Shown: positions 18,217-62,918 of the stretch, one piece after another
How the letters are laid out: each line of letters starts with the position of its first letter
How positions within the stretch are numbered: position 1 is the stretch's first letter
Source: Argopecten irradians
Taxonomy: Eukaryota > Mollusca > Bivalvia > Pectinida > Pectinidae
Assembly: GCF_041381155.1 (NCBI RefSeq)
Contig: NC_091147.1
Span: 38,814,053-38,878,052 of the forward strand
Length of the DNA stretch: 64,000 nucleotides
Direction: 5' to 3'
Made by a program: the position numbers and the translations under genes
Notes under the pieces: generated by a model
Databases searched by the model: none
Told to the model about the DNA's origin: nothing
What the model saw: the letters and a program-made list of their open reading frames with translations, nothing else

Positions 18217-20190
18217 TCAGCAGAGTTGAAAGATACGAATGTAGCTACGATCATCCACAGTATCACTCAGGTTGGAAACCACAAACTTTTCACCATTAAC
18301 AGCTGTTGCCCTTGGTCTCCGCATTCCATCTGTAGATGTCAGTAGTTCCCGGACACGTGTCCCATCCCCAGATATCTGTACGACGTTGTGTGAAAAACAA
18401 CCACACACGTATATGTTTCCCTCCCTATCTACGTCTATTCCAGTAGAAACTCTCACGACACCAACCTTCATCACGTCCGTGCGGCGTTTGTCTGGCGACA
18501 GTCTGGACACTGCGACTTGTCCGTCTTTGTGGTTACAAGTACTGACGAGTATGTCACCTGTCTCTGTATCATGTCCCAGGTTCCAGCATGTGTTGTCATA
18601 TTTGTGTAACATGTCAGTGGCTCCGTCCTGTGTCAGACTGTACACTCCTCCTCCATACTCACTCACTACAAACCTCCCGTCTGTATGTGTGATACCACGT
18701 AAATCTTTGTCTATGTTGATGACAGATGACAGAGATAGTTTTTTGTCCTCCACTTTTACCACATGTACACCTTTACCACAGACAGCGACTGCCACAGTAG
18801 TGTTGTTCACCAAACACATATCACAAGGATTTTCAGGAACGGTCAACTGATCCAGGTACTGTCCTTCGTCTGTAAACAGTTTCAGTCTCTTGTTTGTACT
18901 GTCACTAACTACTAAGTTGTTATCTGGAAGGTACACAATTCCACGTATCTTAATATCTTGATCAGCTGGAATACGTACGTTGAACTTCCTTATCTCCTTC
19001 GCTTGGCGTTCTGACAGCGTTAGTGGAACGAACCCAGAATCAACAGGGAAACGTCTCCCCTGTTTCTCGATCACAATATTCCCCAACATGTGATCACCTT
19101 GAGTGCCAGGTTTAGGAACATGATGCTGGATACTGACGGATGTATAGGGCTCCCTCATGTCTTTGATCAGGTCCTGACATGACTCGATCTCGGCCTGTCC
19201 CCTCTGATACATCATTATAACTTCCATGGGATTGTTTTCCTCCACAGCTTTGACGGAGGACTTCATAGTATTTAGCATACCCTTCATCAGACGATCACAT
19301 TGCCGTAATGACATGTCAATGTTCTCTTTCTCCTCCTTATACTTTGTGACCAATTCATCCGTGACAGCTTTCTGACGTTCATCTAGTTCTTTCTCGATCC
19401 TCTGGCGAAGATCTGTGATGCTCTTCAGAACAACTTCTTGATTCTGAACCAAGGTTTGGATCTGTTCATCAAAGTCCTTCACTAACGACTTCATGGCCTC
19501 AGCCCCTTTCTTCAGCATCTCTTCCATGTCTCTTAGTCGTGTCCCACTTTTTAACCTCTCTAAATAATCCTTGGCTGTCATCACCACTTCCTGTTCACAC
19601 TGTCTGTGGTATTTGATCATGCATACATGGCACCCAAGACGTTGGTGCTTTTCACAATACCAAAGGATTTTTTCTTCGTGTTGATCACATTTCGGGACTG
19701 ATTCCTCCGGTTTTGACCTGCTGATATCATACTCACTGATATCTAAGATATCACAGTCATTGTGCAGGATGTCATGATGTTGTTTCTTACAGTTCTCACA
19801 AAAATGGATGTTCATCATTTTGCACCAGAACTTGGCTGGATTAGTCAGGGTACCTTTGGTCTGGCAGGGTTTGCAGTATGGTAATTCAGATGAACGTTCC
19901 TTTAGCTGGATCAGATCCTGGATTACGACATTAGTCGGGAACTGCTCCGCCCATTTCTCCTTTGGTTCAGCTTGATTGACAGGGGAGGTCGTCCTCCGAC
20001 AGATTGGACAGGGAAATGAGGTATCTGACACCCTCTTCTCAGAAACTTCCTTGTCAATGTAAGTCCCAAGACATTCCTGACAGAAGCTGTGTAGACAAGG
20101 TAGGGACTTGGGTTGTTGGAGTCTTTCAAGGCAGATTGGACACTCAAGTAAGTGTAGATCAAGTTCTGGAGGACGTCCGCCTTCAGCCAT
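18217..20190 (-). CDS. TRIM copy 1 (alpha): RING, two B-boxes, coiled coil, NHL-like propeller; probable E3 ubiquitin ligase
   Basis: An intact 657-codon single coding exon. The RING finger is C3HC4 with C17, C20, C32, H34, C37, C40, C61 and C64. B-box 1 lies at about 106-143 (C106, C109, C123, C131, C134). B-box 2 lies at about 168-195 (C168, H171, C179, H182, C187, C190, H195). A coiled coil runs over about 211-346. The last 240 residues form NHL-like blades (GIVYLPDNNLVVSDSTNKRL, then GNIYVCGCFSHNVVQISGDG). Proteins of this build transfer ubiquitin, with the propeller binding RNA or protein. The target here is unknown. The closest relative in the window is copy 3: by hand count about 6 changes in the first 415 residues against about 31 in the last 240. 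The start MAEGGRPPELD is shared by all copies. Mollusc TRIM families are often linked to immunity; that role is inferred here. Confidence 0.92.
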   Translation of the reverse strand: MAEGGRPPELDLHLLECPICLERLQQPKSLPCLHSFCQECLGTYIDKEVSEKRVSDTSFPCPICRRTTSPVNQAEPKEKWAEQFPTNVVIQDLIQLKERSSELPYCKPCQTKGTLTNPAKFWCKMMNIHFCENCKKQHHDILHNDCDILDISEYDISRSKPEESVPKCDQHEEKILWYCEKHQRLGCHVCMIKYHRQCEQEVVMTAKDYLERLKSGTRLRDMEEMLKKGAEAMKSLVKDFDEQIQTLVQNQEVVLKSITDLRQRIEKELDERQKAVTDELVTKYKEEKENIDMSLRQCDRLMKGMLNTMKSSVKAVEENNPMEVIMMYQRGQAEIESCQDLIKDMREPYTSVSIQHHVPKPGTQGDHMLGNIVIEKQGRRFPVDSGFVPLTLSERQAKEIRKFNVRIPADQDIKIRGIVYLPDNNLVVSDSTNKRLKLFTDEGQYLDQLTVPENPCDMCLVNNTTVAVAVCGKGVHVVKVEDKKLSLSSVINIDKDLRGITHTDGRFVVSEYGGGVYSLTQDGATDMLHKYDNTCWNLGHDTETGDILVSTCNHKDGQVAVSRLSPDKRRTDVMKVGVVRVSTGIDVDREGNIYVCGCFSHNVVQISGDGTRVRELLTSTDGMRRPRATAVNGEKFVVSNLSDTVDDRSYIRIFQLC

Positions 20191-20217
20191 TGTAGGTATT
20201 GGTAGTGTTCAAGGTGG

Positions 20218-20223
20218 ATCTAA
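20218..20223 (-). promoter_or_regulatory. Putative 3' splice site of a 5' UTR intron, TRIM copy 1
   Basis: On the minus strand TTATTTTTAG/ATCCACCTTG lies 30 bases before the start codon and is kept in all four copies. This suggests that the coding exon is preceded by a non-coding first exon (see 23453-23530). Confidence 0.4.
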
Positions 20224-20561
20224 AAATAAATCGTCATCAAAAAACAATTAAACATTATGTACGTGATAAATCCTATTTGCTAGAAAAAATATATTGTACT
20301 GTATTCATAATAATGTATTCAATTCATTCTATCATATAGCTAGTTGATTTTGTGAGTATTATGTTTTCGCGATTTCACAGGACATTACTATGACCGCGAA
20401 AAGTTGATCCGCAAAATATCGAGAAATGGTTGAATAATATGTAATGCGGATAGGCAGATTCGTGAAAATAAAGGTTTTTGTTCAAATCTCGAAAATTACG
20501 GTAATTTCATTTCCCTTTGACTGGCTTACTATAGAAACATTGACATGCCATCATAACTTAA

Positions 20562-21646
20562 GATTTAAGGCCATGTTTAAACTTGTTATTTTTTGTATGC
20601 CTATATATCACTTCTTAGGTGTACTTGAACATTACTTAGTTGATATAAAGCGTCTTTGCATTCGACCTAACCTTAGATATTACAGTTGACTAATAGATTG
20701 TTGTGTTGTTTGTAAAATTTGGTAAAATATGCAAAAAATGTAGATTTCAGATCTGCAAGTGCACAGGTTTCAGTACATACTTCTGTCACCAAATAACCCT
20801 GCCATTATGTTTACTAGTGTTTATGGCATGTAGTAGGAGCGATGGTTTGACTGGATTCAACTTTACAAAAGCATAGACATAGAATTCTTTATTACTTTGT
20901 CAGGAAAATGGCGGCTATAGATTATAACACGCAAATATGGTATATATGGGACATCCCCAATTGATACTAATGTACATATTAAATGTTATGTCATATGAAC
21001 ATAGTGGGACTTTTTTAAAGAAAAAAAATGTTTAATATAAGGGTTTAAGTGTATTTCCACAATCTGCATGTTTTGCCCCAAGTACAGCAGTTAAATATTT
21101 TTTCTCAAAACTAGTCTTCGTTTCATGTCCAGTGTTCCTAAAAGTATATAGTAGACTTATTTGAGATGATTGAAATGCCTTCCTATAATGCTATATTTTC
21201 ATCATATAATCTACAGTCACCATTTTTTTAATAAGGTGAAAAAGGGCCCAATACGTATGTCTTTGTAAGGTCGAATCCGGTCAAACCATCGCTCCTACTA
21301 CATGCTATAAAATTTAGTTAACATAATGGCATGGTTATTTTGTGACAGAAATATGTACTGAACCCAAACCTACAATTTTTTTGGCATATTTTGCAAAAAT
21401 ATACAAACCAATGCTTCTACTACATGCTATAAACAAAAGTAAACATAAAGACATGATTATTTGGTGACAGAAATATGTATTGAATCCTGTGGACTTGCAT
21501 AACTGAAATCTACAATTTTTTTGCATATATTACCAATTTTTTTATGAACATCACAATAATCTACTAATCAACTGTAATCGACTAAGTTATATACAAGTAC
21601 ACCTAAGAAGTGATATATAGGCATACAAAAAATCACGTTTAAAACC
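20562..21646. mobile_element. 1.1-kb foldback DNA transposon at a TTAA site (copy 1)
   Basis: Long inverted arms: TGTATGCCTATATATCACTT near 20597 pairs with AAGTGATATATAGGCATACA near 21609, and GTAGTAGGAGCGATGGTTTG near 20831 pairs with CAAACCATCGCTCCTACTAC near 21282. The right arm has an internal duplication of part of itself. TTAA stands at both borders (20558-20561 and 21647-21650). Copy 4 of the TRIM array has one TTAA at 63324-63327 and lacks the element. TTAA targets are typical of piggyBac-type elements. No transposase is present. Confidence 0.8.
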
Positions 21647-22358: not shown

Positions 22359-22429
22359 AGGGATATCTCAACCATCATGAAAGATTTTGGCTAATCAACC
22401 CTAGACTTGCCGAGGGTTGAGATATCCCT
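22359..22429. repeat. Hairpin in TRIM upstream flank
   Basis: AGGGATATCTCAACC (22359-22373) and GGTTGAGATATCCCT (22415-22429) are perfect inverted repeats around a 41-bp loop. The same hairpin is present in the copy 2 flank (about 34927-34997) and the copy 3 flank (about 47389-47459). Confidence 0.65.
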
Positions 22430-23452: not shown

Positions 23453-23530
23453 CAGTCACAGTCACCACAGATCACTCCCACAGATACGGAACGTTACAAA
23501 GGGAAGTAACTATAGATCTGAAATATGATC
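23453..23530 (-). promoter_or_regulatory. Putative non-coding first exon and promoter zone, TRIM copy 1
   Basis: On the minus strand a strong donor CTG/GTGAGTAATG lies at 23453/23452. The stretch before it (GGGAGTGATCTGTGGTGACT) is less AT-rich and is kept near 56440-56480. Splicing to 20219 would remove a 3.2-kb intron. The upstream limit is unknown. Position and splice sites are the only support. Confidence 0.33.
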
Positions 23531-25076: not shown

Positions 25077-28000
25077 ATAGTATTAATAAGGATGTCATGA
25101 TCAATATGTGAAATCACATGTAGTATTAATTAGGATGTCATAATCAATATGTGACATCACATGTAGTATTAATTAGGATGTCATAATCAATATGTGACAT
25201 CACATGTAGTATTAATTAGGATGTCATAATCATTATGTGACATCACATGTAATATTAATTAGGATGTCATAATCAATATGTGACATCACATGTAGTATTA
25301 ATTAGGATGTCATAATGTGACATCACATGTAGTATTAATTAGGATGTCATAATCAATATGTGACATCACATGTAGTATTAATTAGGATGTCATAATCAAT
25401 ATGTGACATCACATGTAGTATTAATTAGGATGTCGTAATCAATATGTGACATCACATGCAGTATTAATTAGGATGTCATAATCAATATGTGACATCACAT
25501 GTAGTATTAATTAGGATGTCATAATCAATATGAGACATCACCTGTAGTATTAATTAGGATGTCATAATCAATATGAGAAAACATGTAGTATTAATTAGGA
25601 TGTCATAATCAATATGTAGTATTAGATGAATCAATCACATGTAGTATTAATTAGGATGTCATAATCAATATATGACATCACATGTAGTATTAATTAGGAT
25701 GTCATAATCAATATGTGACATCACATGTAGTATTAATTAGGATGTCATAATCAATATGTGACATCACATGTAGTATTAATTAGGATGTCATAATCAATAT
25801 GTGACATCACATGTAGTATTAATTAGGATGTCCTTAATGAATATATGACATCACATGTAGTATTAATAGGATGTCTTAATCAATGTTACATCACATGTAG
25901 TATTAGTATTAATTGGACATCACATGTATATTAATAATCAATATGTGACATCACCATGTGTAGTATTAATTAGGATGTCATAATCAATATGTGACATCAC
26001 ATGTAGTATTAATTAGGATGTCATAATCAATATGTGACATCACATGTAGTATTAATTAGGATGTCATAATCAATGTGACATCACATGTAGTATTAATTAG
26101 GATGTCATAATCAATATGTGACATCACATGTAGTATTAATTAGGATGTCATAATCAAATATGTGACATCACATGTAGTATTAATTAGGATGTCATAATCA
26201 ATATGTGACATCACATGTATTATTAATTAGAATGTCATAATCAATATGTGACATCACATGTAGAATTAATTAGGATGTCTTATCAATATGTGACATCACA
26301 TGTAGTATTAATTAGGATGTCATAATCAATATGTGACATCACATGTAGTATTAATTAGGATGTCATAATCAATATGTGACATCACATGTAGTATTAATTA
26401 GGATGTCATAATCAATATGTGACATCACATGTAGTATTAATTAGGATGTCATAATCAATATGTGACATCACATGTAGTATTAATTAGGATGTCATAATCA
26501 ATATGTGACATCACATCTAGTATTAAATAGGATGTCATAATCAATATGTGACATCACATGTAGTATTAATTAGGATGTCATAATCAATATGTGACATCAC
26601 ATGTAGTATTAATTAGGATGTCATAATCAATATGTGACGTCACATGTAGTATTAATTAGGATGTCATAATCAATATGTGACATCACATGTAGTATTAATT
26701 AGGATGTCATAATCAATATGTGACATCACATGTAGTATTAATTAGGATGTCATAATCAATATGTGACATCACATGTAGTATTAATTAGGATGTCATAATC
26801 AATATGTGACATCACTGTAGTATTAATTAGGATGTATGTGACATCACATGTAGTATTAATTAGGATGTCATAATCAATATGTGACATCAATGAGTATTAA
26901 TAGGATGTCATAATCAATATGTGACATCACATGTAGTATTAATTAGGATGTCATAATCAATATGTGACATCACATGTAGTATTAATTAGGATGTCATAAT
27001 CAATATATGACATCACATGTAGTATTAATAGGATGTCATAATCAATATGTGACATCACATGTAGTATTAATTAGGATGTCATAATCAATATGTGACATCA
27101 CATGTAGTATTAATTAGGATGTCATAATCAATATGTGACATCACATGTAGTATTAATTAGGATGTCATAATCAATATGTGACATCACATGTAGTATTAAT
27201 TAGGATGTCATAATGAATATGTGACATCACATGTAGTATTAATTAGGATGTCATAATCAATATGTGACATCACATGTAGTATTAATTAGGATGTCATAAA
27301 TACATACCATAATCAATATGTGACATCACTTGTATTATATTAGAATCAGAATCAATATATGTGAAATCACATGCAATAGAAGTATTAATTAGGATCTCAT
27401 AATCAATATGTGACATCACATGTAGTATTAATTAGGATGTCATAATCAATATGTGACATCACATGTAATATTAATTAGGATGTCATAATCAATATGTGAC
27501 ATCACATGTAGTATTAATTAGGATGTCATAATCAATATGTGACATCACATGTAGTATTAATTAGGATGTCATAATCAATATGTGACATCACATGTAGTAT
27601 TAATTAGGATGTCATAATGAATATGTGACATCACATGTAGTATTAATTAGGATGTCATAATCAATATGTGACATCACATGTAGTATTAATTAGGATGTCA
27701 TAATCAATATGTGACATCACTTGTAGTATTAATTAGGATGTCATAATCAATATGTGACATCACATGTAGTATTAATTAGGATGTCATAATCAATATGTGA
27801 CATCACATGTAGTATTAATTAGGATAGTCATAACGGTTGTGAATCAATAATGTGACATGACACACATGTAGTATTAATTAGGATGTCATAAATTAATATG
27901 TGACATCACATGTAGTATTAATTAGGATGTCATAATCAATATGTGACATCACATGTAGTATTAATTAGGATGTCATAATCAATATGTGACATCACATGTA

Positions 28001-29850
28001 GTATTAATTAGGATGTCATAATCAATATGTGACATCACATGTAGTATTAATTAGGATGTCATAATGTGACATCACATTATATGAATCACATGTATATTAA
28101 TTAGGATGTCATAATCAATATGTGACATCACATGTAGTATTAATTAGGATGTCATAATCAATATGTGACAACCATGGTAATTAATTGGATGTCATAATCA
28201 ATAATATGTGACATCACATGTAGTATTAATTAGGAAGTCATATATGAATCAATATGTGACATCACATATGTGTAGTAATTAATTAGGATGTCATAATGTG
28301 ACATCACATGTGGTATTAATTAGGATGTCATAATCAATATGTGACATCACATGTAGTATTAATTAGGATGTCATAATCAATATGTGACATCATATGTGAC
28401 ATTATATCACATGTGTAGTATTAATTAGGATGTCATAATCAATATGTGACATCACATGTAGTATTAATTAGGATGTCATAATCAATATGTGACATCACAT
28501 GTAGTATTAATTAGGATGTCATAATCAATATGTGACATCACATGTAGTATTAATTAGGATGTCATAATCAATATGTGACATCACATGTAGTATTAATTAG
28601 GATGTCATAATCAATATGTGACATCACATCTAGTATTAATTAGGATGTCATAATCAATATGTGACATCACATGTAGTATTAATTAGGATGTCATAATCAA
28701 TATATGTGACATCACATGTAGTATTAATTAGGATGTCATAATCAATATGTGACATCACATATGAATATTAATTAGGATGTCATAATCAATATGTGACATC
28801 ACATATGTATATGTGATTAGATGTCATAATCAATGTGTGACATCACATGTAGTATTAATTAGGATGTCATAATCAATATGTGACATCACATGTAGTATTA
28901 ATTAGGATGTCATAATCAATATGTGACATCACATGTAGTATTAATTAGGATGTCATAATACAATATGTTGACATCACATGTAGTATTAATTAGGATGTCA
29001 TAAATCAATATGTGACATCACATGTAATATTGATTAGGATGTCATAATCAATATGTGACATCACATGTAGTATTAATTAGGATGTCATAATCAATATGTG
29101 ACATCACATGTAGTATTGATTAGGATGTCATAATCAATATGTGACATCACATGTAGTATTAATTAGGATGTGCATCATGTAGTATTAATAGGATATGTGA
29201 CATCACATGCAGTATTAATTAGGATGTCATAATCAATATGTGACATCACATGTAGTATTAATTAGGATGTTATAATCAATATGTGACGTCACATGTAGTA
29301 TTAATTAGGATGTCATAATCAATATGTGACATCACATGTAGTATTAATAAGGATGTCATAATCAATATGTGACATCACATGTAATATTGATTTGGATGTC
29401 ATAATCAATATGTGACATCACATGTAGTATTAATAGGATGTCATAATCAATATGTGACATCACATGTAGTATTAATTAGGATGTCATAATCAATATGTGA
29501 CATCACATGCAGTATTAATTAGGATGTCATAATCAATATGTGACATCACATGAGTATTAATTATATCATAATATATGTGACATCACATGCAGTATTAATT
29601 AGGATGTACATAATCAATATGTGACATCACATGTAGTATTAATTAGGATGTCATAATCAATATGTGACATCACATGCAGTATTAATTAGGATGTCATAAT
29701 CAATATGTGACATCACATGTAGTATTAATTAGGATGTCATAATCAATATGTGACATCACATGTTGTATTTACTAGTATGTCATAATCAATATGTGACATC
29801 ACAATCTAGTTTTAACTATGATATCATAATCAATGTGATATTACGTGATT
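25077..29850. repeat. 43-bp satellite, array A
   Basis: About 110 tandem units of 43 bp. Each contains the near-palindrome TGTGACATCACATG, then TAGTATTAATTAGG and ATGTCATAATCAATA. Many units are exact and many carry indels or partial units. The array lies between TRIM copies 1 and 2. Arrays B and C have the same unit in the same orientation. Confidence 0.97.
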
Positions 29851-30725: not shown

Positions 30726-32702
30726 TCAGTAGATTTGAAATATACGAATGTAGCTACGATCATCCTCAGTATCACTTTCGTTGCAAACCACAAACTTGTC
30801 GCCATTAACAGCTATTGCATTTGGATACTCTATTCCATCTGTAGATGTCAACAGTTCCCGTACACGTGTCCCATCCCCAGACATCTGCACGATGTTGTGT
30901 GAATTCCAACCACACACGTAGATGTTTCCCTCCCTGTCTATATCTATTCCAGTAGACTCACTCACGACACCAACCTTCATCACGTCCGTCCGGCGTTTGT
31001 TTGGTGACAGTCTGGACATTGCGGCTTGTCCGATTTTGTTGCAATCAATACTAACAAGTATGTCACCTGTCTCTGTATCATGTGCCAGGTTCCAGCATAT
31101 GTTGTCATATTTGTGTAACATGTCTGTGGCTCCGTCCTGTGTCAGACTGTACACTCCTTCTCCATACGCGCTCACTACAAACCTCCCATCTGTATGAGTG
31201 ATACCACGTAAAGCATTGTCTGTGTTGATGACAGAAGACAGAGATAATTTTTTGTCCTCAACTTTTACCACATATACACCTTTACTATCGACAGCGACTG
31301 CCACAGTAGTGTTGTTCACCAAACACATATCAACGGGATTTCCAGGAATGGTCAACTGATCCAGGTACTGTCCAACGTCTGTAAACAGTTTCAGTCTGAT
31401 GTTTTGACAATCACTAACTACTATGTTGTTATCTGGAAAGTACACCATTCCACATATTGCAACATCCCATATATCAGCTGGGATACGTACGTTGAACTTC
31501 CTTATCTCCTTCGCTTGGCGTTCTGACAATGGCAGTGGAAGGAACCCAGGATCAACAGGGAAACGTCGCTCCTGTTTCTCGATCACAATCTTCCCCAACA
31601 TGTGATCACGTTGAGTGCCAGGTTTAGGAACCTGATGCTGAATACAGACGGATGTATAGGGCTCCTTCATGTCTTTGATCAGGTCCTGACATGACTCGAT
31701 CTCGGCCTGTCCTCTCTGATACATCATTATAGCCTCCATGGGGTTGTTTTCCTCCACAGCTTTGACGGAGGACTTCATGGTATTTAGCATACCCTTCATC
31801 AGACGATCACATTGCCGTAACGACACCTCAATGTTCTCTTTCTCCTTTTTATACTTTGTGACCAATTCATCCGTGACGGCTTTCTGACATTCATCTAGTT
31901 CTTCCTCGATCCTCTGGCGTAGATCTGTGATGCTCTTTAGAGCATTTTCTTGATTTTGAACCAAGGTTTGGATCTGTTCATCAAAGTCCTTCAATAACGA
32001 CTTCATGGTCTCCGCACCTTTCTTCAGCATCTCTTCCATGTCTCTTAGTTGTGTCCCACTTTTTAACCTCTCTAAATATTCCTTGGCTGTCATCACCACT
32101 TCCTGTTCACACTGCCTGTGGTATTTGATCATGCATACATGACACCCAAGACGTTGGTGCTTTTCACAATACCATAGGATTTTTTCTTCATGTTGATCAC
32201 ATTTCGGGACCGATTTCTCTGGTTTTGACCTGCTGATATCATACTCACGAATATCTAAGATATCACAGTCATTGTGTATGATGTCATGATGTTGTTCCTT
32301 ACAGTTCTCACAAAAATGTGTGTTCATCATTTTGCACCAGAATTTGGCTGGATTAGTCAGGTCACCTTTGGTCTTGCAGGGTTTGCAGTATGGTAATTCA
32401 GATGAACGTTCCTTTAGCTGGATCAGGTTCTGCATCACGACATTAGTGGGGAACTGTTCCGCCCATTTCTCCTTTGGTTCTGCATGATTGCCAGGGGAGG
32501 TCGTCATCCGACAGATTGGACAGGGAAATGATGTATCTGACACCCTCTTCCCCGATATTTCCTTGAGGATGTAAGTCCCAAGACATTCCTGACAGAAACT
32601 GTGATGACAGGGTAGGGACTTGGGTTGTTGAAGTCTTTCAAGGCAGATTGGACACTCAAGTAAGTGTAGATCAAGCTCTGGAGGACGTCCGCCTTCAGCC
32701 AT
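30726..32702 (-). CDS. TRIM copy 2 (beta): RING, two B-boxes, coiled coil, NHL-like propeller
   Basis: Intact, 658 codons from the shared start MAEGGRPPELD at 32702. An in-frame ATG seven codons earlier (32723) exists, but the other copies do not support its use. RING, B-box and coiled-coil residues are as in copy 1, with LPCHHSFC in place of LPCLHSFC. It shares with copy 4, against copies 1 and 3, the words QENALKSITDLRQRIEEELD and KEYLERL and one extra residue in the first propeller blade (ADIWDVAICGMVY). Its blade loops are its own: SDCQNIRL, VDSKGVY, SIDCNKIGQ, CGWNSHN. Expected role: an E3 ligase whose propeller picks the target. The target is unknown. Confidence 0.92.
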   Translation of the reverse strand: MAEGGRPPELDLHLLECPICLERLQQPKSLPCHHSFCQECLGTYILKEISGKRVSDTSFPCPICRMTTSPGNHAEPKEKWAEQFPTNVVMQNLIQLKERSSELPYCKPCKTKGDLTNPAKFWCKMMNTHFCENCKEQHHDIIHNDCDILDIREYDISRSKPEKSVPKCDQHEEKILWYCEKHQRLGCHVCMIKYHRQCEQEVVMTAKEYLERLKSGTQLRDMEEMLKKGAETMKSLLKDFDEQIQTLVQNQENALKSITDLRQRIEEELDECQKAVTDELVTKYKKEKENIEVSLRQCDRLMKGMLNTMKSSVKAVEENNPMEAIMMYQRGQAEIESCQDLIKDMKEPYTSVCIQHQVPKPGTQRDHMLGKIVIEKQERRFPVDPGFLPLPLSERQAKEIRKFNVRIPADIWDVAICGMVYFPDNNIVVSDCQNIRLKLFTDVGQYLDQLTIPGNPVDMCLVNNTTVAVAVDSKGVYVVKVEDKKLSLSSVINTDNALRGITHTDGRFVVSAYGEGVYSLTQDGATDMLHKYDNICWNLAHDTETGDILVSIDCNKIGQAAMSRLSPNKRRTDVMKVGVVSESTGIDIDREGNIYVCGWNSHNIVQMSGDGTRVRELLTSTDGIEYPNAIAVNGDKFVVCNESDTEDDRSYIRIFQIY

Positions 32703-38716: not shown

Positions 38717-41700
38717 AGGATGTCATAATCAATGTAGTATAATTAGGGATGTCACTATGAAAGTGACATGCACATGTAGTATTAATTAGGATGTCATAAT
38801 CAATATGTGACATCACATGTAGTATTAATTAGGATGTCATAATCAATATGTGACATCACATGTAGTATTAATTAGGATGTCATAATCAATATGTGACATC
38901 ACATGTAGTATTAATTAGGATGTCATAATCAATATGTGACATCACATGTAGTATTAATTAGGATGTCATAATCAATATGTGACATCACATGTAGTATTAA
39001 TTAGGATGTCATAATCAATATGTGACATCACATGTAGTATTAATTAGGATGTCATAATCAATATGTGACATCACATGTAGTATTAATTAGGATGTCATAA
39101 TCAATATGTGACATCACATGTAGTATTAATTAGGATGTCATAATCAATATGTGACATCACATGTAGTATTAATTAGGATGTCATAATCAATATGTGACAT
39201 CACATGTAGTATTAATTAGGATGTCATAATCAATGTGACATCACATGTAGTATTAATTAGGATGTCATAATCATATGTGACATCACATGTAGTATTAATT
39301 AGGATGTCATAATCAATATGTGACATCACATGTAGTATTAATTAGGATGTCATAATCAATATGTGACATCACATGTAGTATTAATTAGGATGTCATAATC
39401 AATATGTGACATCACATGTAGTATTAATTAGGATGTCATAATCAATATGTGACATCACATGTAGTATTAATTAGGATGTCATAATCAATATGTGACATCA
39501 CATGTAGTATTAATTAGGATGTCATAATCATATGATGCATCACATGTAGTAGTATTAATTAGGATGTCATAATCATATGTGACATCACATGTAGTATTAA
39601 TTAGGATGTCATAATCAATATGTGACATCACATGTAGTATTAATTAGGATGTCATAATCAATATGTGACATCACATGTAGTATTAATTAGGATGTCATAA
39701 TCAATATGTGACATCACATGTAGTTATTAGATGATTCATATGTGACATCACATGTAGTATTAATTAGGATGTCATAATCAATATGTGACATCACATGTAG
39801 TATTAATTAGGATGTCATAATCAATATGTGACATCACATGTAGTATTAATTAGGATGTCATAATCAATATGTGACATCACATGTAGTATTAATTAGGATG
39901 TCATAATCAATATGTGACATCACATGTAGTATTAATTAGGATGTCATAATCAATATGTGACATCACATGTAGTATTAATTAGGATGTCATAATCAATATG
40001 TGACATCACATGTAGTATTAATTAGGATGTCATAATCAATATGTGACATCACATGTAGTATTTATTAGGATGTCATAATCAATATGTGACATCACATGTA
40101 GTATTAATTAGGATGTCTCATAATCAATATGTGACATCACATGTAGTATTAATTAGGATGTCATAATCAATATGTGACATCACATGTAGTATTAATTAGG
40201 ATGTCATAATCAATATGTGACATCACATGTAGTATTAATTAGGATGTCATAATCAATATGTGACATCACATGTAGTATTAATTAGGATGTCATAATCAAT
40301 ATGTGACATCACATGTAGTATTAATTAGGATGTCATAATCAATATGTGACATCACATGTAGTATTAATTAGGATGTCATAATCAATATGTGACATCACAT
40401 GTAGTATTAATTAGGATGTCATAATCAATATGTGACATCACATGTAGTATTAATTAGGATGTCATAATCAATATGTGACATCACATGTAGTATTAATTAG
40501 GATGTCATAATCAATATGTGACATCACATGTAGTATTAATTAGGATGTCATAATCAATATGTGACATCACATGTAGTATTAATTAGGATGTCATAATCAA
40601 TATGTGACATCACATGTAGTATTATTATTAGGGATGTCATAATCAATATGTGACATCACATGTAGTATTAATTAGGATGTCATAATCAATATGTGACATC
40701 ACATGTAGTATTAATTAGGATGTCATAATCAATATGTGACATCACATGTAGTATTAATTAGGATGTCATAATCAATATGTGACATCACATGTAGTATTAA
40801 TTAGGATGTCATAATCAATATGTGACATCACATGTAGTATTAATTAGGATGTCATAATCAATATGTGACATCACATGTAGTATTAATTAGGATGTCATAA
40901 TCAATATGTGACATCACATGTAGTATTAATTAGGATGTCATAATCAATATGTGACATCACATGTAGTATTAATTAGGATGTCATAATCAATATGTGACAT
41001 CACATGTAGTATTAATTAGGATGTCATAATCAATATGTGACATCACATGTAGTATTAATTAGGATGTCATAATCAATATGTGACATCACATGTAGTATTA
41101 ATTAGGATGTCATAATCAATATGTGACATCACATGTAGTATTAATTAGGATGTCATAATCAATATGTGACATCACATGTAGTATTAATTAGGATGTCATA
41201 ATCAATATGTGACATCACATGTAGTATTAATTAGGATATGTAATAATCAATATGTGACATAATCAATGTAGTATTAATTAGGATGTCATAATCAATATGT
41301 GACATCACATGTAGTATTAATTAGGATGTCATAATCAATATGTGACATCACATGTAGTATTAATTAGGATGTCATAATCAATATGTGACATCACATGTAG
41401 TATTAATTAGGATGTCATAATCAATATGTGACATCACATGTAGTATTAATTAGGATGTCATAATCAATATGTGACATCACGTGTAGTATTAATTAGGATG
41501 TCATAATCAATATGTGACATCACATGTAGTATTAATTAGGATGTCATAATCAATATGTGACATCACATGTAGTATTAATTAGGATGTCATAATCAATATG
41601 TGACATCACATGTAGTATTAATTAGGATGTCATAATCAATATGTGACATCACATGTAGTATTAATTAGGATGTCATATTCAATATGTGACATCACATGTA

Positions 41701-42467
41701 GTATTAATTAGGATGTCATAATCAATATGTGACATCACATGTAGTATTAATTAGGATGTCATAATCAATATGTGACATCACATGTAGTATTAATTAGGAT
41801 GTCATAATCAATATGTGACATCACATGTAGTATTAATTAGGATGTCATAATCAATATGTGACATCACATGTAGTATTAATTAGGATGTCATAATCAATAT
41901 GTGACATCACATGTAGTATTAATTAGGATGTCATAATCAATATGTGACATCACATGTAGTATTAATTAGGATGTCATAATCAATATGTGACATCACATGT
42001 AGTATTAATTAGGATGTCATAATCAATATGTGACATCACATGTAGTATTAATTAGGATGTCATAATCAATATGTGACATCACATGTAGTATTAATTAGGA
42101 TGTCATAATCAATATGTGACATCACATGTAGTATTAATTAGGATGTCATAATCAATATGTGACATCACATGTAGTATTAATTAGGATGTCATAATCAATA
42201 TGTGACATCACATGTAGTATTAATTAGGATATCATAATCAATATGTGACATCACATGTAGTATTAATTAGGATGTCATAATCAATATGTGACATCACATG
42301 TAGTATTAATTAGGATGTCATAATCAATATGTGACATCACGTGTAGTATTAATTAGGATGTCATAATCAATATGTGACATCACATGTAGTATTAATTAGG
42401 GTGTCACAATCAATATGCGACATCACGTGTAGTATTAATTAGGATGCCATAATCAATGTGATATCAC
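38717..42467. repeat. 43-bp satellite, array B
   Basis: About 87 units, the most uniform of the three arrays: long runs are exact copies, with few indels (for example near 39535, 39725, 40625 and 41240). It ends in units with CACGTGTAG variants and then the SINE. Confidence 0.97.
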
Positions 42468-43211: not shown

Positions 43212-45185
43212 TCAGCAGAGTTGAAAGATACGAATGAAGCTACGATCATCCGCAGTATCACTTACGTTGGAAACCACAAACTTTTCACCATTAACAGCTA
43301 CTGCCCTTGGATACTGTACTCCATCTGTAGATGTCAACAGGTCCCGGACACGTGTCCCATCCCCAGACATCTGTACGATGTTGTGTGACCTAGTACCACA
43401 CACGTAGATGTTTCCCTCCCTGTCTACATCTATTCCAGCAGAACCTCTCACGACACCAACCTTCATCACGTCCGTGCGGCGTTTGTCTGGCGACAGTCTT
43501 GACACTGCGACTTGTCTATTTGTATTGCTCTCAGTACTGACAAGTATGTCTTCTGTCTCTGTATCATGTGCCAGGTTCCAGCATGTCCTGTCATATTTGT
43601 GTAATATGTCAGTGACTCCGTCCTGTGTCAGACTGTACACTCCTCCTTCATACTCACTCACTACAAACCTCCCGTCTGTATGCGTGATACCACGTAAATC
43701 TTTGTCTATGTTGATGACAGATGACAGAGATAGTTTTTTGTCCTCCACTTTTACCACATGTACACCTTTACCACAGACAGCGACTGCCACAGTAGTGTTG
43801 TCCACCAAACACATATCACAAGGATCTCCAGGAACGGTCAACTGATCCAGGTACTGTCCTTCGTCTGTAAACAGTTTCAGTCTCTTGTTTTTACTGTCAC
43901 TAACTACTATGTTGTTATCTGGAAGGTACACAATTCCACGTATCTTAATATCTTGATCAGCTGGAATACGTACGTTGAACTTCCTTATCTCTTTCACTTG
44001 GCGTTCTGACAGCGTTAGTGACACGAACCCAGAATCAACAGGGAAACGTCTTCCCTGTTTCTCGATCACAATATTCCCCAACATGTGATCACCTTGAGTG
44101 CCAGGTTTAGGAACATGATGCTGGATACTGACGGATGTATAGGGCTCCCTCATGTCTTTGATCAGGTCCTGACATGACTCGATCTCGGCCTGTCCCCTCT
44201 GATACATCATTATAACTTCCATGGGATTGTTTTCCTCCACAGCTTTGACGGAGGACTTCATAGTATTTAGCATACCCTTCATCAGACGATCACATTGCCG
44301 TAATGACATGTCAATGTTCTCTTTCTCCTCCTTATACTTTGTGACCAATTCATCCGTGACAGCTTTCTGACATTCATCTAGTTCTTTCTCGATCCTCTGG
44401 CGAAGATCTGTGATGCTCTTCAGAACAACTTCTTGATTCTGAACCAAGGTTTGGATCTGTTCATCAAAGTCCTTCACTAACGACTTCATGGCCTCAGCCC
44501 CTTTCTTCAGCATCTCTTCCATGTCTCTTAGTCGTGTCCCACTTTTTAACCTCTCTAAATAATCCTTGGCTGTCATCACCACTTCCTGTTCACACTGTCT
44601 GTGGTATTTGATCATGCATACATGGCACCCAAGACGTTGGTGCTTTTCACAATACCAAAGGATTTTTTCTTCGTGTTGATCACATTTCGGGACCAACTCC
44701 TCCGGTTTTGACCTGCTGATATCATACTCACCGATATCTAAGATATCACAGTCATTGTGCAGGATGTCATGATGTTGTTTCTTACAGTTCTCACAAAAAT
44801 GGATGTTCATCATTTTGCACCAGAACTTGGCTGGATTAGTCAGGGTACCTTTGGTCTGGCAGGGTTTGCAGTATGGTAATTCAGATGAACGTTCCTTTAG
44901 CTGGATCAGATCCTGGATTACGACATTAGTCGGGAACTGCTCCGCCCATTTCTCCTTTGGTTCAGCTTGATTGACAGGGGAGGTCGTCCTCCGACAGATT
45001 GGACAGGGAAATGAGGTATCTGACACCCTCTTCTCAGAAACTTCCTTGTCAATGTAAGTCCAAAGACATTCCTGACAGAAGCTGTGTAGACAAGGTAGGG
45101 ACTTGGGTTGTTGGAGTCTTTCAAGGCAGATTGGACACTCAAGTAAGTGTAGGTCAAGTTCTGGAGGACGTCCGCCTTCAGCCAT
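43212..45185 (-). CDS. TRIM copy 3 (alpha): RING, two B-boxes, coiled coil, NHL-like propeller
   Basis: Intact, 657 codons, the same architecture as copy 1 and nearly the same protein up to residue 415. The changes I count there are G42W in the RING, S152G, S164L, one R to C, P to S and A to V. The propeller differs much more: SDSKNKRL, PGDPCDMCLVDNTT, STESNTNRQVAV, CGTRSHNIVQM, DGVQYPRAVAVN. All RING and B-box metal ligands are kept, so the ligase part should work. A 7.95-kb insertion upstream (48490-56440) may have changed its promoter. Confidence 0.92.
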   Translation of the reverse strand: MAEGGRPPELDLHLLECPICLERLQQPKSLPCLHSFCQECLWTYIDKEVSEKRVSDTSFPCPICRRTTSPVNQAEPKEKWAEQFPTNVVIQDLIQLKERSSELPYCKPCQTKGTLTNPAKFWCKMMNIHFCENCKKQHHDILHNDCDILDIGEYDISRSKPEELVPKCDQHEEKILWYCEKHQRLGCHVCMIKYHRQCEQEVVMTAKDYLERLKSGTRLRDMEEMLKKGAEAMKSLVKDFDEQIQTLVQNQEVVLKSITDLRQRIEKELDECQKAVTDELVTKYKEEKENIDMSLRQCDRLMKGMLNTMKSSVKAVEENNPMEVIMMYQRGQAEIESCQDLIKDMREPYTSVSIQHHVPKPGTQGDHMLGNIVIEKQGRRFPVDSGFVSLTLSERQVKEIRKFNVRIPADQDIKIRGIVYLPDNNIVVSDSKNKRLKLFTDEGQYLDQLTVPGDPCDMCLVDNTTVAVAVCGKGVHVVKVEDKKLSLSSVINIDKDLRGITHTDGRFVVSEYEGGVYSLTQDGVTDILHKYDRTCWNLAHDTETEDILVSTESNTNRQVAVSRLSPDKRRTDVMKVGVVRGSAGIDVDREGNIYVCGTRSHNIVQMSGDGTRVRDLLTSTDGVQYPRAVAVNGEKFVVSNVSDTADDRSFIRIFQLC

Positions 45186-49648: not shown

Positions 49649-49654
49649 AAGAGA

Positions 49655-50155: not shown

Positions 50156-51545
50156 TTCAATTCATTTATTTGCATTTTTACATCCACAAACAAGGATCGA
50201 TAGCAAATTACAAAGATAACATTACATGTATAACACAATAACAATAAAACAAGAACAACTTATGCATTTAGCAAGCCCGCTTTCCTCAGTTCAAACGACT
50301 TTTTAATGAAGAGGCCCAAATCCTGCAGAAGTTGTGGTTCATTAGATGACAATAACTTTATTAAATTTTCATAGTCTGTGAACATAGAATCAATGTTGTA
50401 TTTAGATAGAAAACTTTTTCTTTCAGTAGAATTTACTGTACACTGGAGGATGAAGTGAGCTTCATCCTCTACAATATTGCAAAATTTGCATAACCGGTGC
50501 TGGCGAGGTATCTTTTTTGTCCTACCAGCTTCAATTTCTAGGTTGTGATTGCTGATCCGAAGTTTTGTCAACAATTTTCGATATTCAAAATTTTGCAAAG
50601 AGAGATAATATTCCTCTTTATAGTTTTGTTTAAGTTTACTATATAGAAGTAGCTTATTACTACAATCTAAAAGCTGCATTTTGCTTGAGAAAATAATGTC
50701 AAATCTGCCATGTATGAATCTTTTTAACGACCGTTTTAATCTGGCCTGTGCCTTCCTACTGAATTTTCCCCTTTTAATGTCAAATATGATGTTATTTTCG
50801 TTGATAATACTTGATACGTATGAATACCACGAATATGATCCACTTTCATGAATATTTTTGACTGACCTTCAAAGCCTCTTTTACAAGATTATTAATGTCA
50901 TCTTGTGATATTCTAGCCAAATAACACAATGCTTGAGTATTAATGAAACAGTCTAGTGTATATTGTCCTAATTCAGCCCTGGAAGCAGCATTTACTGCAT
51001 ATTTTCCAACCCCAAGGGCCATTTTGCAAAATTTTAAATTTATTTGTTCAAATGGCGTTTTATCTATTATTGAAAATTTGTCAAATGTTGAATTATTCAC
51101 ATGCGCTCTTTTACTTGCATTTGCAATTTTACTGTAAAAGTCAGCATACCATATTTCAGAATTATATGTTAAGATTGGTCTGACTAAAGAATTATACAAC
51201 TTTTTCCAGAGCCATATGGGCATATCAGCTATTTTATTTAAATATTGCTTAATTGAAAACAGAACTTTTCTACTTTTTACACTAAGTTCCTTAGCAGCTA
51301 GCATGAATTTACCGTTGTTACATAAAGTTGTACCTAAATATTTATACTCAGAGACTTGTTCAATTTCCTGATTTTTAAACATAAACGGTTTCACATTATG
51401 TTTGGTTTTTATATTTTTCTGCCTAGTTTGGAAAATCATCGTTTTTGTTTTTTTAGAATTTATTGAAAGCTGCCATTTTTCACAGTAGTTTTCCAATTCA
51501 ATTAATGATTGCATATGAAGATATTTAAGAGTATATATTGTTAAT
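50156..51545 (-). mobile_element. 5'-truncated LINE: end of reverse transcriptase and C-terminal zinc finger
   Basis: The minus strand, from about 51520 down, reads ELENYCEKWQLSINSKKTKT and then YKYLGTTLCNNGKF and VRPILTYNSEIWYADF, the thumb region that follows the catalytic YADD box of non-LTR reverse transcriptases. After one frameshift near 50850-50880 the frame continues through SWYSYVSSIINENNIIFD to the zinc finger RQHRLCKFCNIVEDEAHFIL, with the stop at 50260. The catalytic core and endonuclease are missing, so it cannot move by itself. A short 3' UTR follows to about 50156. Confidence 0.85.
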
Positions 51546-52085
51546 TCAGATATCTGAATTTGTGAACTGAAGAAATAAAGATAAATGGGTTTAAAATCAG
51601 AAAATGGATTGAATTCTTCTGCCCATTCATATATGAATATGAATCTATTTGTGGACATGCAAGTACCCTTTCCAAACTTGTTTTATTTCCTATTACTGGA
51701 AGATGCCACTTAAAATATATTCATTTAAGGATGTATATATGACCACATGTTGTGGTTGATCATAACTTATAACTATGGCTTAAATTATACCTTACAGTTA
51801 CAGGTTTCATTTAAATCATAACACCCAGTCACATTCCCAGCTCCTCCATATCTATTTAGTGTTCCATAAACAATTAATTTACAACACTCCACATGTGGTT
51901 ACATGTATGTTATAAGTTTAGGCCTACAAGTCCAAATAACAATAACTAGTGTATGTACAGTAAAACATTTCATAACAAACACTCTTACAATTAAGTTCAA
52001 TAACACAGTAATTTTCAGTCCCTGTCAATATTCCTACACAATATCTGTAATATGTGTTTACATATAATGGGTTTGGGTTTCATTT

Positions 52086-58744: not shown

Positions 58745-60590
58745 CATGTGACATCACATGTAGTATTAATTAGGATGTCATAATCAATATGTGACACCAC
58801 ATGTAGTATTAATTAGGATGTCATAATCAATATGTGACATCACATGTATTATTAATTAGGATGTCATAATCAATATGTGACATCACATGTAGTATTAATT
58901 AGGATATCATAATCAATATGTGACATCACATGTAGTATTAATTAGGATATCATAATCAATATGTGACATCACATGTAGTATTAATTAGGATGTCATAATC
59001 AATATGTGACATCACATGTAGTATTAATTAGGATGTCATAATCAATATGTGACATCACGTGTAGTATTAATTAGGATGTCATAATCAATATGTGACATCA
59101 CGTGTAGTATTAATTAGGATGTCATAATCAATATGTGACATCACGTGTAGTATTAATTAGGATGTCATAAAGTAATATCACTTGTAGTATTAATTAGGAT
59201 GTCATAAAGTAATATCACTTGTAGTATTAATTAGGATGTCGTTATCAATATGTGACATCACATGTAGTATTAATTAGGATGTCATAAAGTAATATCACTT
59301 GTAGTATTAATTAGAATGTCGTTATCAATATGTGACATCACATGTAGTATTAATTAGGATGTCATAATCAATATGTTACAGCACATGTAGTATTAATTAG
59401 AATGTCGTTATCAATATGTGACATCACATGTAGTATTAATTAGGATGTCAAATAATCTGACATCACAGGTAGTAATAATTAGGATATCATAATGTGACGT
59501 CACATGCAGTATTAATTAGGATGCCAAAATCAATATGAGACATCACGTGTAGTATTAATTAGGATGTCATAATCAATATGTGACATCACGTGTAGTATTA
59601 ATTAGGATGTCATAATCAATATGTGACATCACATGTAGTATTAATCAGGATGTCATAATCAATATCTGATATCACATGTAGTATTAATTAGGATGTCACA
59701 ATCAATATGTGACATCACATGTAGTATTAATTAGGATGTCATAATGTGACATCACGTGTAGTATTAATTAGGATGTCATTATCAATGTGTGACATCACAT
59801 GTAGAATTAATTAGGATGTCATAATGTGATATTACATGTAGTATTAATAAGGATGTCATAATCAATATGTGACATCACGTGTAGTATTAATTAGGATGTC
59901 ATAATGTGATATCACATGTAGTATTAATTAGGATGTCATAATCAATGTGACATCACATGTAGTATTAATTAGGATGTCATAATCAATATGTGACATCACA
60001 TGTAGTATTAATCAGGATGTCATAATCAATATGTGTCATCACATGTAGTATTAATTAGAATGTCATAATCAATATGTGACATCACATGTGACATCACATG
60101 TAGTATAAATTAGGATGCCATAATCAATATGTGTCATCACATGCAGTATTAATTAGGATGTCGTAATCAATATGTGACATCACATGTAGTATTAATTAGA
60201 ATGTCATAATCAATATGTGACATCACATGTAGTATTAATTAGGATGTCATAATCAATATGTGACATCACATGTAGTATTAATTAGGATGTCATAATCAAT
60301 ATGTGACATCACATGTAGTATTAATTAGGATGTCATAAACAATATGTGACGTAACATGTAGTATCAATTAGGATGTCATAATCAATATGTGACATCAGCT
60401 GTAGTATTAATTAGGATATCATAATCAATATGTGACATCACATGTAGTATTAATTAGAATGTCGTAATCAATAGGTGACGTCACATGAAGTATTGATTAG
60501 GATGTCATGATCAATATGTGACATCACGTTTAGTATTGATTAGGATGTCATGATCAATATGTGACATCACGTGTAGTATTTATTTGGTAT
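58745..60590. repeat. 43-bp satellite, array C
   Basis: About 43 units, the most varied array: CACGTGTAG variants, units shortened to CATAAAGTAATATCACTTG, and point changes throughout. It joins the TRIM copy 4 3' flank directly, with no SINE between. Confidence 0.96.
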
Positions 60591-60941
60591 GACACTTGTT
60601 TAAAGAATTGTATATGGTATATCAATTTTTCCCACTTATGAAATAAATTTCGTACTAAATACCCACGTGTGTAAGATCTATATCTAACGTGAGGTGGTGA
60701 AAAATAAGAAAGGCTTGTTATATATCAATGAATATAACATCTTTAATTGATCTTACATAGTAACATTATATTTAAATATAATGTGGTTCTACTGTAATCC
60801 GGATATGAAACTTTAGAAATAAAAGATGAACAGACAAGCGTCAGTAATTATTTTTTTGGAGATGATGTTTAATACATTCTTTTCCTTGTTTGTTGTTTAT
60901 TGCATTGTGATTTATAGTAATGTATCACAGTTTCCATTAAT
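60591..60941 (-). other. 3' flank of TRIM copy 4
   Basis: Homologous to 30336-30725. AATAAA on the minus strand at 60896-60901, about 41 nt past the stop, is a possible polyadenylation signal. Confidence 0.55.
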
Positions 60942-62918
60942 TTAGTACAGTTGAAATATACGAATGGAGTTACGATCATCCGCAGTACTACATTCGTTGG
61001 AAACCACAAACTTTTCACCATTTACAGCTATTGCACTTGGTTTTTCTATTCCATGTGTAGATGTCAACAGTACCCGGACACGTGTCCCGTCCCCAGACAT
61101 TTGTACGACGTTTTGTGAATAAAAACCACACACGTAAATGTTTCCCTCACTGTCTATGTCTATTCCATTAGAACCTCTAACGACACCAACCTTCATCACG
61201 TCCGTGCGTCGTTTGTCTGGCGACAGTCTGGACACGGCGACTTGTCCGTTTTTGTTGCTAAAAGTACTGACGAGTATATCATCTGTCTCAGTATCATGTG
61301 CCAGGTTCCAGCATGTTGTGTCATAATTGTGTAACATGTCGGTGGCTCCATCCTGTGTCAGACTGTACACTCCTCCTTCATACTCACTCACTACAAACCG
61401 CCTGTCTGTATGTGTGACACCGCGTAAATCTTTGTCTAATGTGATGACAGATGACAGAGACAGTTTTTTGTCCTCCACTTTTACCACATGTACACCTTTA
61501 CCATAGACAGCGACTGCCACAGTGGTGTTGTTCACCAAACACATATCAAAGGGACTTCCAGGAACGGTCAACTGATCCAGGTACTGTCCTTCGTCTGTAA
61601 ACATTTTCAGTCTCTTGTTTCCCAGGTCACTTACTACTATGTTGTTATCTGGAAGGTACACAATTCCACATATCGTAACAACGCATTGATCAGCTGGAAT
61701 ACTTACGTTGAACTTCCTTATCTCCTTCGCTTGACGTTCTGACAATGGCAGTCGAAGGAACTCAGGATCAACAGGGAAACGTCGCCCCTGTTTCTCGATC
61801 ACAATCTTCCCCAACATGTGATCACCATGAATACCAGGTTTAGGAACCTGATGCTGAATACTGATGGATGTAAAGGGCTCCCTCATGTCTTTGATCAGGT
61901 CCTGACATGACTCGATCTCGGCCTGTCCCCTCTGATACATCATTATAGCCTCCATGGGGTTGTTTTCCTCCACAGCTTTGACGGAGGACTTCATGGTATT
62001 TAGCATACCCTTCATCAGACGATCACATTGCCGAAACGATACCTCCATGTTCTCTTTCTCCTCTTTATACTTTGTGACCAATTCATCCGTGACGGCTTTT
62101 TGACATTCATCTAGTTCCTCCTCGATCCTCTGGCGTAGATCTGTGATGCTCTTCAGAGCATTTTCTTGATTTTGAACTAAGGAGTGGATCTGTTCTTCAA
62201 AGTCCTTCACTAACGACTTCATGGCCTCAGCACCTTTCTTCAGCATCTCGTCCATGTCTCTTAGTCGTGTCCCACTTTTTAACCTCTCTAAATATTCCTT
62301 GGCTGTCATCACCACTTCCTGTTCACACTGCCTGTGGTATTTGATCATGCATACATGACACCCAAGACGTTGGTGTTTCTCGCAATACCAAAGGATTTTT
62401 TCTTCGTGTTGATCACATTTGGGGACTGATTCCTCCGGTTTTGACCTGCTGATATCATACTCACTGATATCTAAGATATCACAGTCATTGTGTATGATGT
62501 CATGATGTTGTTCCTTACAGTTCTCACAAAAATGGATGTTCATCATTTTACACCAGAATTTGGCTGGATTAGTCAGGATACCTTTGGTCTGGCAGGGTTT
62601 ACAGTATGGTAATTCAGATGAATGTTCCTTTAGCTGGATAAGGTCCTGGATCACGACATTAGTCGGGAAATGCTCCGCCCATTTCTCCTTTGGTTCAGCA
62701 TGATTGACAGGGGAGGTCGTCCTCCGACAGATTGGACAGGGAAATGATGTACCTGACACACTCTTCTCAGAAATTTCCTTGTCAATGTAAGTCCCAAGAC
62801 ATTCCTGACAGAAGCTGTGTAGACAAGGTAGGGATTTGGGTTGTTGGAGTCTTTCAAGGCAGATTGGACACTCAAGTAAGTGTAGGTCAAGTTCTGGAGG
62901 ACGTCCGCCTTCAGCCAT
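60942..62918 (-). CDS. TRIM copy 4 (beta): RING, two B-boxes, coiled coil, NHL-like propeller
   Basis: Intact, 658 codons, the same architecture and start as the others. All RING ligands (C17 to C64) and B-box ligands are kept. It shares QENALKSITDLRQRIEEELD, KEYLERL, the PLSERQ form and the extra blade residue with copy 2. Its own blade loops are SDLGNKRLKMF, VYGKGVH, STFSNKNGQVAV, CGFYSQNVVQM and SNECSTADDRNS. Its upstream flank is the most diverged of the four and lacks the foldback element, so it has had least recent exchange with its neighbours. Confidence 0.92.
   Translation of the reverse strand: MAEGGRPPELDLHLLECPICLERLQQPKSLPCLHSFCQECLGTYIDKEISEKSVSGTSFPCPICRRTTSPVNHAEPKEKWAEHFPTNVVIQDLIQLKEHSSELPYCKPCQTKGILTNPAKFWCKMMNIHFCENCKEQHHDIIHNDCDILDISEYDISRSKPEESVPKCDQHEEKILWYCEKHQRLGCHVCMIKYHRQCEQEVVMTAKEYLERLKSGTRLRDMDEMLKKGAEAMKSLVKDFEEQIHSLVQNQENALKSITDLRQRIEEELDECQKAVTDELVTKYKEEKENMEVSFRQCDRLMKGMLNTMKSSVKAVEENNPMEAIMMYQRGQAEIESCQDLIKDMREPFTSISIQHQVPKPGIHGDHMLGKIVIEKQGRRFPVDPEFLRLPLSERQAKEIRKFNVSIPADQCVVTICGIVYLPDNNIVVSDLGNKRLKMFTDEGQYLDQLTVPGSPFDMCLVNNTTVAVAVYGKGVHVVKVEDKKLSLSSVITLDKDLRGVTHTDRRFVVSEYEGGVYSLTQDGATDMLHNYDTTCWNLAHDTETDDILVSTFSNKNGQVAVSRLSPDKRRTDVMKVGVVRGSNGIDIDSEGNIYVCGFYSQNVVQMSGDGTRVRVLLTSTHGIEKPSAIAVNGEKFVVSNECSTADDRNSIRIFQLY

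Follow-up and report, generated by a model that had tools for sequence, protein, structure and literature searches.

What does a tandem cluster of TRIM genes gain by keeping a constant ligase half and varying the other? The question is raised by a window of 64,000 nucleotides, the whole stretch of DNA analysed here (contig C14, 38,814,053-38,878,052, in an assembly of 846 Mb), which carries four uninterrupted open reading frames (ORFs) of 657-658 codons, all on the minus strand and spaced by about 12-18 kb. A sequence-only reading, made earlier from the letters of the window, had claimed four intact TRIM genes sharing one ligase half, and these are indeed present. Their C-terminal half, a predicted NHL-type propeller, varies on one face, and it does so with a signal of positive selection in this array and in related clades of the same genome. 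There is good support for a constant ligase module coupled to a recognition face that has diversified, and we regard it as probable that the array is a tandem repertoire of intracellular E3 ligases whose propeller face has been diversified by selection and gene conversion, likely under pressure from antagonists. The four genes, in window positions, are:

18217..20190, minus strand: TRIM-NHL gene 1 (L001), 657 amino acids, intact; RING PF13445 at 40.8 bits and NHL PF01436 at 23.5 bits, both over cut-off
30726..32702, minus strand: TRIM-NHL gene 2 (L007), 658 amino acids from MAEGG, intact; RING over cut-off, NHL at 16.6 bits, below the cut-off of 20
43212..45185, minus strand: TRIM-NHL gene 3 (L002), 657 amino acids, intact; NHL at 30.3 bits; the copy used for the propeller model
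60942..62918, minus strand: TRIM-NHL gene 4 (L004), 658 amino acids, intact; RING over cut-off, NHL at 22.5 bits, over cut-off

Gene 2 is 87% identical to gene 1, and its listed ORF begins at a TTG seven codons upstream of the MAEGG start. Besides the four genes no further TRIM-NHL piece was found in the window by tblastn with gene 1 as query (E <= 1e-3). The C14 array extends beyond the window and comprises at least nine copies between 38.832 and 39.053 Mb (about 220 kb), seven of which are intact, one interrupted by an in-frame TAG and one broken. A distance of about 100-325 kb separates it from the contig end (39.157 Mb), and the other clusters retrieved are megabases inside their contigs. 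A splice-acceptor-like TTTTAG or TTTCAG stands about 30 nt 5' of the ATG in all 11 copies checked, so that a 5' untranslated exon appears likely. Further upstream (about -1390 to -430) L001, L002 and L007 differ from one another by 0-4%, the coding region of L007 being mostly 5-13% different from the other two, and L003, L005 and L008 have a different upstream sequence in common; these groups possibly reflect different regulation, or conversion. The region 5' of gene 1 was also scanned for promoters of bacterial type, a result that was discarded as meaningless for an animal gene.

The N-terminal half of the proteins carries the RING finger of the TRIM (RING/B-box/coiled-coil, RBCC) family, with PF13445/PF00097 over the Pfam cut-off in all four window genes. 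In gene 3 it is placed by Pfam and by an alignment of 40 paralogues at:

44994..45137, minus strand: RING finger of gene 3, residues 17-64

The C3HC4 positions of this finger (C17, C20, C32, H34, C37, C40, C61 and C64 in gene 3) are invariant in 40/40 aligned paralogues, as are 23 of the 28 Cys/His columns within residues 1-200. The zf-B_box profile scores 18.7-19.5 bits in the four window genes, below its cut-off of 24.1; over residues 106-198, 15 Cys/His columns are invariant in the 40 proteins and H195 is kept in 39, with three more His columns variable. Residues 210-345 give weak matches to helical profiles of Pfam, and the TIF1-beta RBCC structure aligns over residues 12-379. The intact zinc ligands suggest E3 ubiquitin ligase activity. 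As the ligase half is fixed, every copy should act alike, and each would dimerise, recruit an E2 and ubiquitinate its target.

The C-terminal half would be the target-binding part. NHL passes the cut-off in three of the four window genes, with one repeat each, gene 2 falling below; no B30.2/SPRY family appears for the window proteins in the Pfam tables to E = 1, and a filamin domain was not found in them with Pfam. AlphaFold2 predicts six blades for the four window propellers (mean predicted local distance difference test, pLDDT, 76.5; predicted template modelling score, pTM, 0.80), with the N-terminal strand placed in blade 6 by our assignment. Foldseek matched the model first to the NHL domains of TRIM2, TRIM3 and Drosophila Thin, at an E of 3e-12 to 6e-12 and an identity of 14-17%. 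With phmmer a WD-40 repeat protein and designed propellers ranked best among the solved structures, no single stretch passing, and TRIM3 and TRIM2 came next, through the RING; an identity as a WD-40 or designed propeller was set aside because the fold comparison by Foldseek decided for NHL. The proteins are thus predicted to have the six-bladed NHL propeller of TRIM-NHL (class VII) proteins, in place of the B30.2 C-terminal domain of finTRIMs.

As a rule, a blade of four antiparallel strands turns its BC and DA loops to one face and its AB and CD loops to the other. We call the BC/DA face the top; faces were assigned by strand order, and strands were split at their midpoint. Every blade has variable stretches in both its BC and its DA loop, twelve loops in all, and these should therefore, by strand order, share one face of the predicted propeller. 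The five variable motifs that the sequence-only reading had placed at matching positions of successive blades correspond to BC1, BC2, BC4, BC5 and BC6; BC3 and the six DA loops had escaped it. The propeller and those of its loops that are located here are:

43215..43988, minus strand: six-bladed NHL-type propeller of gene 3, residues 400-657, predicted by AlphaFold2 and Foldseek
43944..43967, minus strand: loop DA1, gene 3, residues 407-414, variable
43884..43895, minus strand: loop BC1, gene 3, residues 431-434, the earlier VVSD(..)N
43767..43775, minus strand: loop BC2, gene 3, residues 471-473, the earlier VAV(..)KGV
43641..43652, minus strand: loop BC3, gene 3, residues 512-515, absent from the earlier list
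43515..43529, minus strand: loop BC4, gene 3, residues 553-557, the earlier VST(.....)
43383..43394, minus strand: loop BC5, gene 3, residues 598-601, the earlier YVCG(..)S
43239..43268, minus strand: loop BC6, gene 3, residues 640-649, the earlier VSN(..)

We compared nonsynonymous and synonymous divergence (dN and dS) without assuming a tree, pairwise and pooled over codons, with codon bootstrap intervals. Among the seven intact array copies dN/dS is 1.91 [1.30-3.09] in the top loops and 0.62 in the top strand ends, as against 0.20 in the bottom loops, 0.26 in the bottom strand ends and 0.26 over residues 1-370. The corresponding dS values are 0.156, 0.133, 0.181, 0.155 and 0.157, and the four window genes alone give a top-loop dN/dS of 2.30 [1.39-4.59]. 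The check that had been proposed for the loops therefore gives a ratio above 1. For copies 1 and 3 the earlier count is exact, with 6 differences in residues 1-415 and 31 after them. The synonymous divergence is not raised to the same extent, as dN increases 13-fold and dS 3-fold between the two parts of this pair and loop dS is not raised in the array. Nevertheless, copies 1 and 3 are the least fair example pair. Their dS is 0.0245 in the N-part and 0.0764 in the C-part (Fisher p = 0.026), and this low N-part value, a conversion or recent-copy tract, makes the contrast of 6 versus 31 look larger, the homogenised N-part inflating it. The other five window pairs have a dS of 0.14-0.26 in both parts, and their dN/dS rises from 0.24-0.28 in the N-part to 0.48-0.84 in the C-part.

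The family is larger than the array. At least 70 stretches of the genome match at E <= 0.001, which is a lower bound because 67 of 521 candidates were scored. We took 48 loci for analysis, covering 49 of the 70 stretches; seven were set aside because they were broken or partial (L005, L015, L016, L017, L018, L021 and L045) and five as too divergent (L043, L044, L046, L047 and L048), and the site tests used the remaining 36. The tree of 40 full-length proteins resolves clade A (C14, C13, C7 and C16; 13 genes with L010), clade B (C8 and C4; 13) and clade C (C12, 25.3-25.7 Mb; 10), plus five more divergent proteins that were left out. L010 (C5), which is outside the 40-gene alignment and tree, was put in clade A by its 73% identity.

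Codon models were run on each clade with our own implementation rather than PAML; it keeps branch lengths constant once M0 has been fitted and takes its posteriors by naive empirical Bayes. For the propeller, twice the log-likelihood difference (2dL) of M2a over M1a is 113.2 (A), 132.4 (B) and 65.5 (C) and that of M8 over M8a is 103.9, 130.2 and 61.4, the selected class having an omega (its dN/dS) of about 5-6 in clades A and B and 16 in C. Removal of gapped columns leaves 2dL at 89.4 (A), 133.3 (B) and 57.0 (C), and the seven array copies alone give 71.6. The N-terminal half gives 8.4 (A, two sites), 2.4 (B) and 24.3 (C) for M2a over M1a; its four sites with omega>1 in clade C are alignment columns 233, 265, 268 and 325, in the presumed coiled-coil half. 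Posteriors above 0.8 under M8 mark 14 (A), 27 (B) and 3 (C) propeller sites, one of the A sites lying in an inserted column and being unmapped. On gene 3, 39 of the 43 mapped sites fall in the top half, 2 in the bottom half and 2 in the linker (top versus bottom, Fisher p = 0.0012 in A and 8e-6 in B). With strict loop limits 33 of the 43 are in BC/DA loops, 1 is in AB/CD, 7 are in strands and 2 in the linker. Positions 598 (BC5) and 625 (DA6) are selected in all three clades. The idea of a receptor repertoire stands in so far as it proposed varied recognition faces on a ligase module that stays constant; its further part, the immune role, is weighed below against other uses of the same face.

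The copies are also mosaic. A test of the pairwise homoplasy index (PHI) type gives a higher compatibility between adjacent sites than after permutation in 4/4 sets (p = 0.001, the floor of the test). L004 and L006 show zero differences in the final coding stretch and 4-12% in the preceding windows, and they have in common 5 of the 12 variable loops, contiguous from BC4 to BC6, and none of the other seven. Among the 21 array pairs, 18 share 0 or 1 loops, two share 3 and L004/L006 share 5. Conversion can thus join one part of a face to a different other part, and in this way it may create useful new specificities.

As conversion can mislead tests that assume one tree, it was simulated under M1a with 15 tracts per data set (20 runs for A, 12 for B and 12 for C), together with four additional clade-A runs without conversion. 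The simulated 2dL reached 0-29.2 (A), 0-33.3 (B) and 0.9-27.4 (C), none near the observed values, and 0-2.4 in the clade-A runs without conversion. Two runs with omega near 1 flagged 88 and 66 'sites' at 2dL < 1, so that a count of sites has no meaning unless 2dL is high; the other runs gave 0-8 false sites in A, 0-6 in B and 0-17 in C. When the propeller was divided into three segments of one third of its length, each with its own tree, 2dL was 25.8, 11.9 and 40.9 (A) and 30.2, 36.3 and 48.7 (B).

Several results weigh against a propeller face diversified by selection. In the wider clades the pooled top-loop dN/dS is 0.77 [0.58-1.01] for the 13 genes of clade A, 1.15 [0.79-1.72] for B and 1.34 [0.84-2.17] for C; as these intervals include 1, the case in those clades rests on the site models (the bottom loops have 0.18, 0.39 and 0.39, respectively). 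Conversion inflates the site test, 21 of the 44 conversion runs having passed the nominal 5% limit, and nominal p-values should therefore not be used. Two of the clade-A segments (25.8 and 11.9) lie under the largest simulation, which was made on whole propellers. Clade C gives three sites, its top-versus-bottom Fisher test is non-significant (p = 0.25), and the 2dL of its N-half falls inside the range of simulated conversion for propellers. The propeller model, made from a four-sequence alignment, is of modest confidence, and all selection tests compare paralogues of one genome.

The mechanism that we propose would work as follows. The ligase half, with its RING and its putative B-box and coiled coil, remains constant, and the BC and DA loops of each blade, plus the adjoining strand ends, would change under positive selection with the opposite face fixed, the top face presumably being the binding site. 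Point substitutions would supply new faces, and so would gene conversion or unequal crossing-over, by which adjoining pieces of the propeller would pass from one copy to another. By analogy with finTRIM and TRIM5-alpha, the pressure would most likely come from an antagonist that itself keeps changing, for instance a protein of a virus or a bacterium; an antagonist of this kind explains continuing change at few sites in three clades.

The explanation that competes best keeps the same diversified face and gives it endogenous partners, such as RNAs, transposon products, gamete or self-recognition proteins or factors of meiotic conflict, in which case the copies could serve as ligases for particular targets or as regulators of RNA. 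It agrees with the solved NHL domains, which bind RNA on a positively charged top surface in the consulted part of PMC9070667, and none of the present results points to a pathogen ligand. Against RNA stands the charge of the top loops, for K+R minus D+E ranges from -9 to +3 over the 40 proteins and is below 0 in 24 of them (loop residues only), which makes a general RNA patch less likely and protein ligands likelier. The high omega of the selected class in all three clades would also fit a continuing antagonist better than a one-off specialisation. We hold endogenous partners to be a serious possibility, though clearly a less probable one than antagonists.

A relaxation of constraint, by which the top loops would drift without positive selection, is improbable. 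Surface loops often evolve fast, and the pooled top-loop ratios of the wider clades are not significantly above 1; yet the intervals for the seven copies and for the window genes are both above 1, M8a, in which omega is fixed at 1, is beaten by a 2dL of 61-130, and the loops of the opposite face are conserved (0.20). It is less probable still that conversion analysed on a single assumed tree has produced false sites with omega>1. Conversion is present and by itself raised 2dL to as much as 33.3, but the observed 113, 132 and 65.5 exceed all runs of the same clade, the segments with their own trees favour M2a in 6/6, the pairwise dN/dS contrast needs no tree, and there is no reason to expect a clustering of false sites on a single face. 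Local hypermutation or templated mutation of the loops, which the clustering of changes in short stretches might suggest, has a negligible probability, for the synonymous divergence of the top loops (dS 0.156) matches the N-half (0.157) and does not exceed the bottom loops (0.181).

The proposed antagonist-driven diversification has close parallels among known TRIM proteins. The teleost finTRIM (ftr), btr and trim35-like sets are likewise multigene TRIMs with a fixed tripartite half (PMC2657112, PMC3137616), and as in the tandem array described here positive selection (M1a/M2a, M7/M8) falls in loops of the C-terminal recognition domain, where recombination points also lie. They are vertebrate and carry a B30.2 beta-sandwich, whereas the present arrays carry an NHL propeller. 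In zebrafish group A finTRIMs a few selected sites are also near the RING (PMC2657112, PMC3137616). In primate TRIM5-alpha selected hypervariable C-terminal loops similarly set the target specificity; it differs in that the variation is between species and not across a large array, in its B30.2 domain and in its known retroviral target (in part PMC2657112). TRIM2, TRIM3, TRIM71/Lin-41, TRIM32, Brat, Mei-P26 and Thin share with the array the RING and the putative B-box/coiled-coil part (not all of them) and the predicted six-bladed NHL propeller. Such TRIM-NHL proteins are conserved, mostly single-copy regulators, and differ from the genes described here, which form arrays and are under positive selection. 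Nematode F-box and MATH-BTB adapters are alike in forming large families with diversified substrate-binding domains on a constant connection to a ubiquitin ligase, but they are cullin adapters with other recognition folds and not self-contained RING ligases. Binding through the positively charged top surface, to RNA, is described for TRIM-NHL proteins in PMC9070667.

In the consulted parts of PMC2533329, conserved and ancient group 1 TRIMs with various C-terminal domains occur in invertebrates, and the fast-evolving, SPRY-bearing group 2 is stated to be absent from them. Tandem expansions of animal TRIMs with a supposed link to defence are reported in PMC3503706, Aplysia has 22 TRIM genes (PMC9334734), and the examined parts of the Pinna defensome paper give no TRIM family (PMC13093298). 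In oyster ten TRIM-annotated genes are among the candidates for larval herpesvirus resistance (PMC9437489), which is suggestive only. Within the literature surveyed, subscription papers being outside its coverage, we found no positive selection in NHL propellers and no invertebrate TRIM-NHL array. The present genes are NHL-type TRIMs that bear the mark of fast evolution on a defined face, and their bearer is probably an invertebrate, hence without vertebrate adaptive immunity. Whether they constitute an invertebrate propeller-based recognition repertoire of at least three clades, with twelve loops reshuffled by conversion, as an independent counterpart of the finTRIM/B30.2 restriction factors, we judge to be evenly balanced. 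The selected positions provide a concrete list of residues for swaps and a way to ask how such animals build variable intracellular recognition from germline arrays.

The genes are accompanied by repeats. A 43-bp satellite follows three of the window genes:

25315..29834, plus strand: 43-bp satellite array, 3' of gene 2
38728..42457, plus strand: 43-bp satellite array, 3' of gene 3
58746..60584, plus strand: 43-bp satellite array, 3' of gene 4

In the 1.5-kb 3' flanks of the C14 loci, 13-26 units occur in five of eight (L002, L004, L005, L006 and L007), one unit occurs in L003, and none was found in L001 and L008. The genome has 240 forward and 36 reverse matches to the unit (<= 2 mismatches), and among the matches listed all places are in the C14 array. 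The satellite may promote unequal crossing-over between TRIM copies. A 33-bp minisatellite 3' of gene 1 (16687-17306) yields a 219-amino-acid repetitive ORF that is probably spurious. Between genes 3 and 4 a reverse-transcriptase-like fragment (50846-51658, minus strand; RVT_1 E 7e-4, below cut-off) is probably a degenerate piece of a retroelement. No tRNA was found in the window. COX1 had no match in the genome, with a search that recovered 8 of 14 controls; the FMRFamide family and molluscan haemocyanin were likewise unmatched, but their searches recovered no control and carry no information. Elsewhere the genome contains at least 150 stretches with a C1q domain (all 150 candidates scored matched, of 241), and this count, given the C1q expansion reported for bivalves in the consulted part of PMC6835236, suggests other expanded recognition families in a bivalve-like animal.

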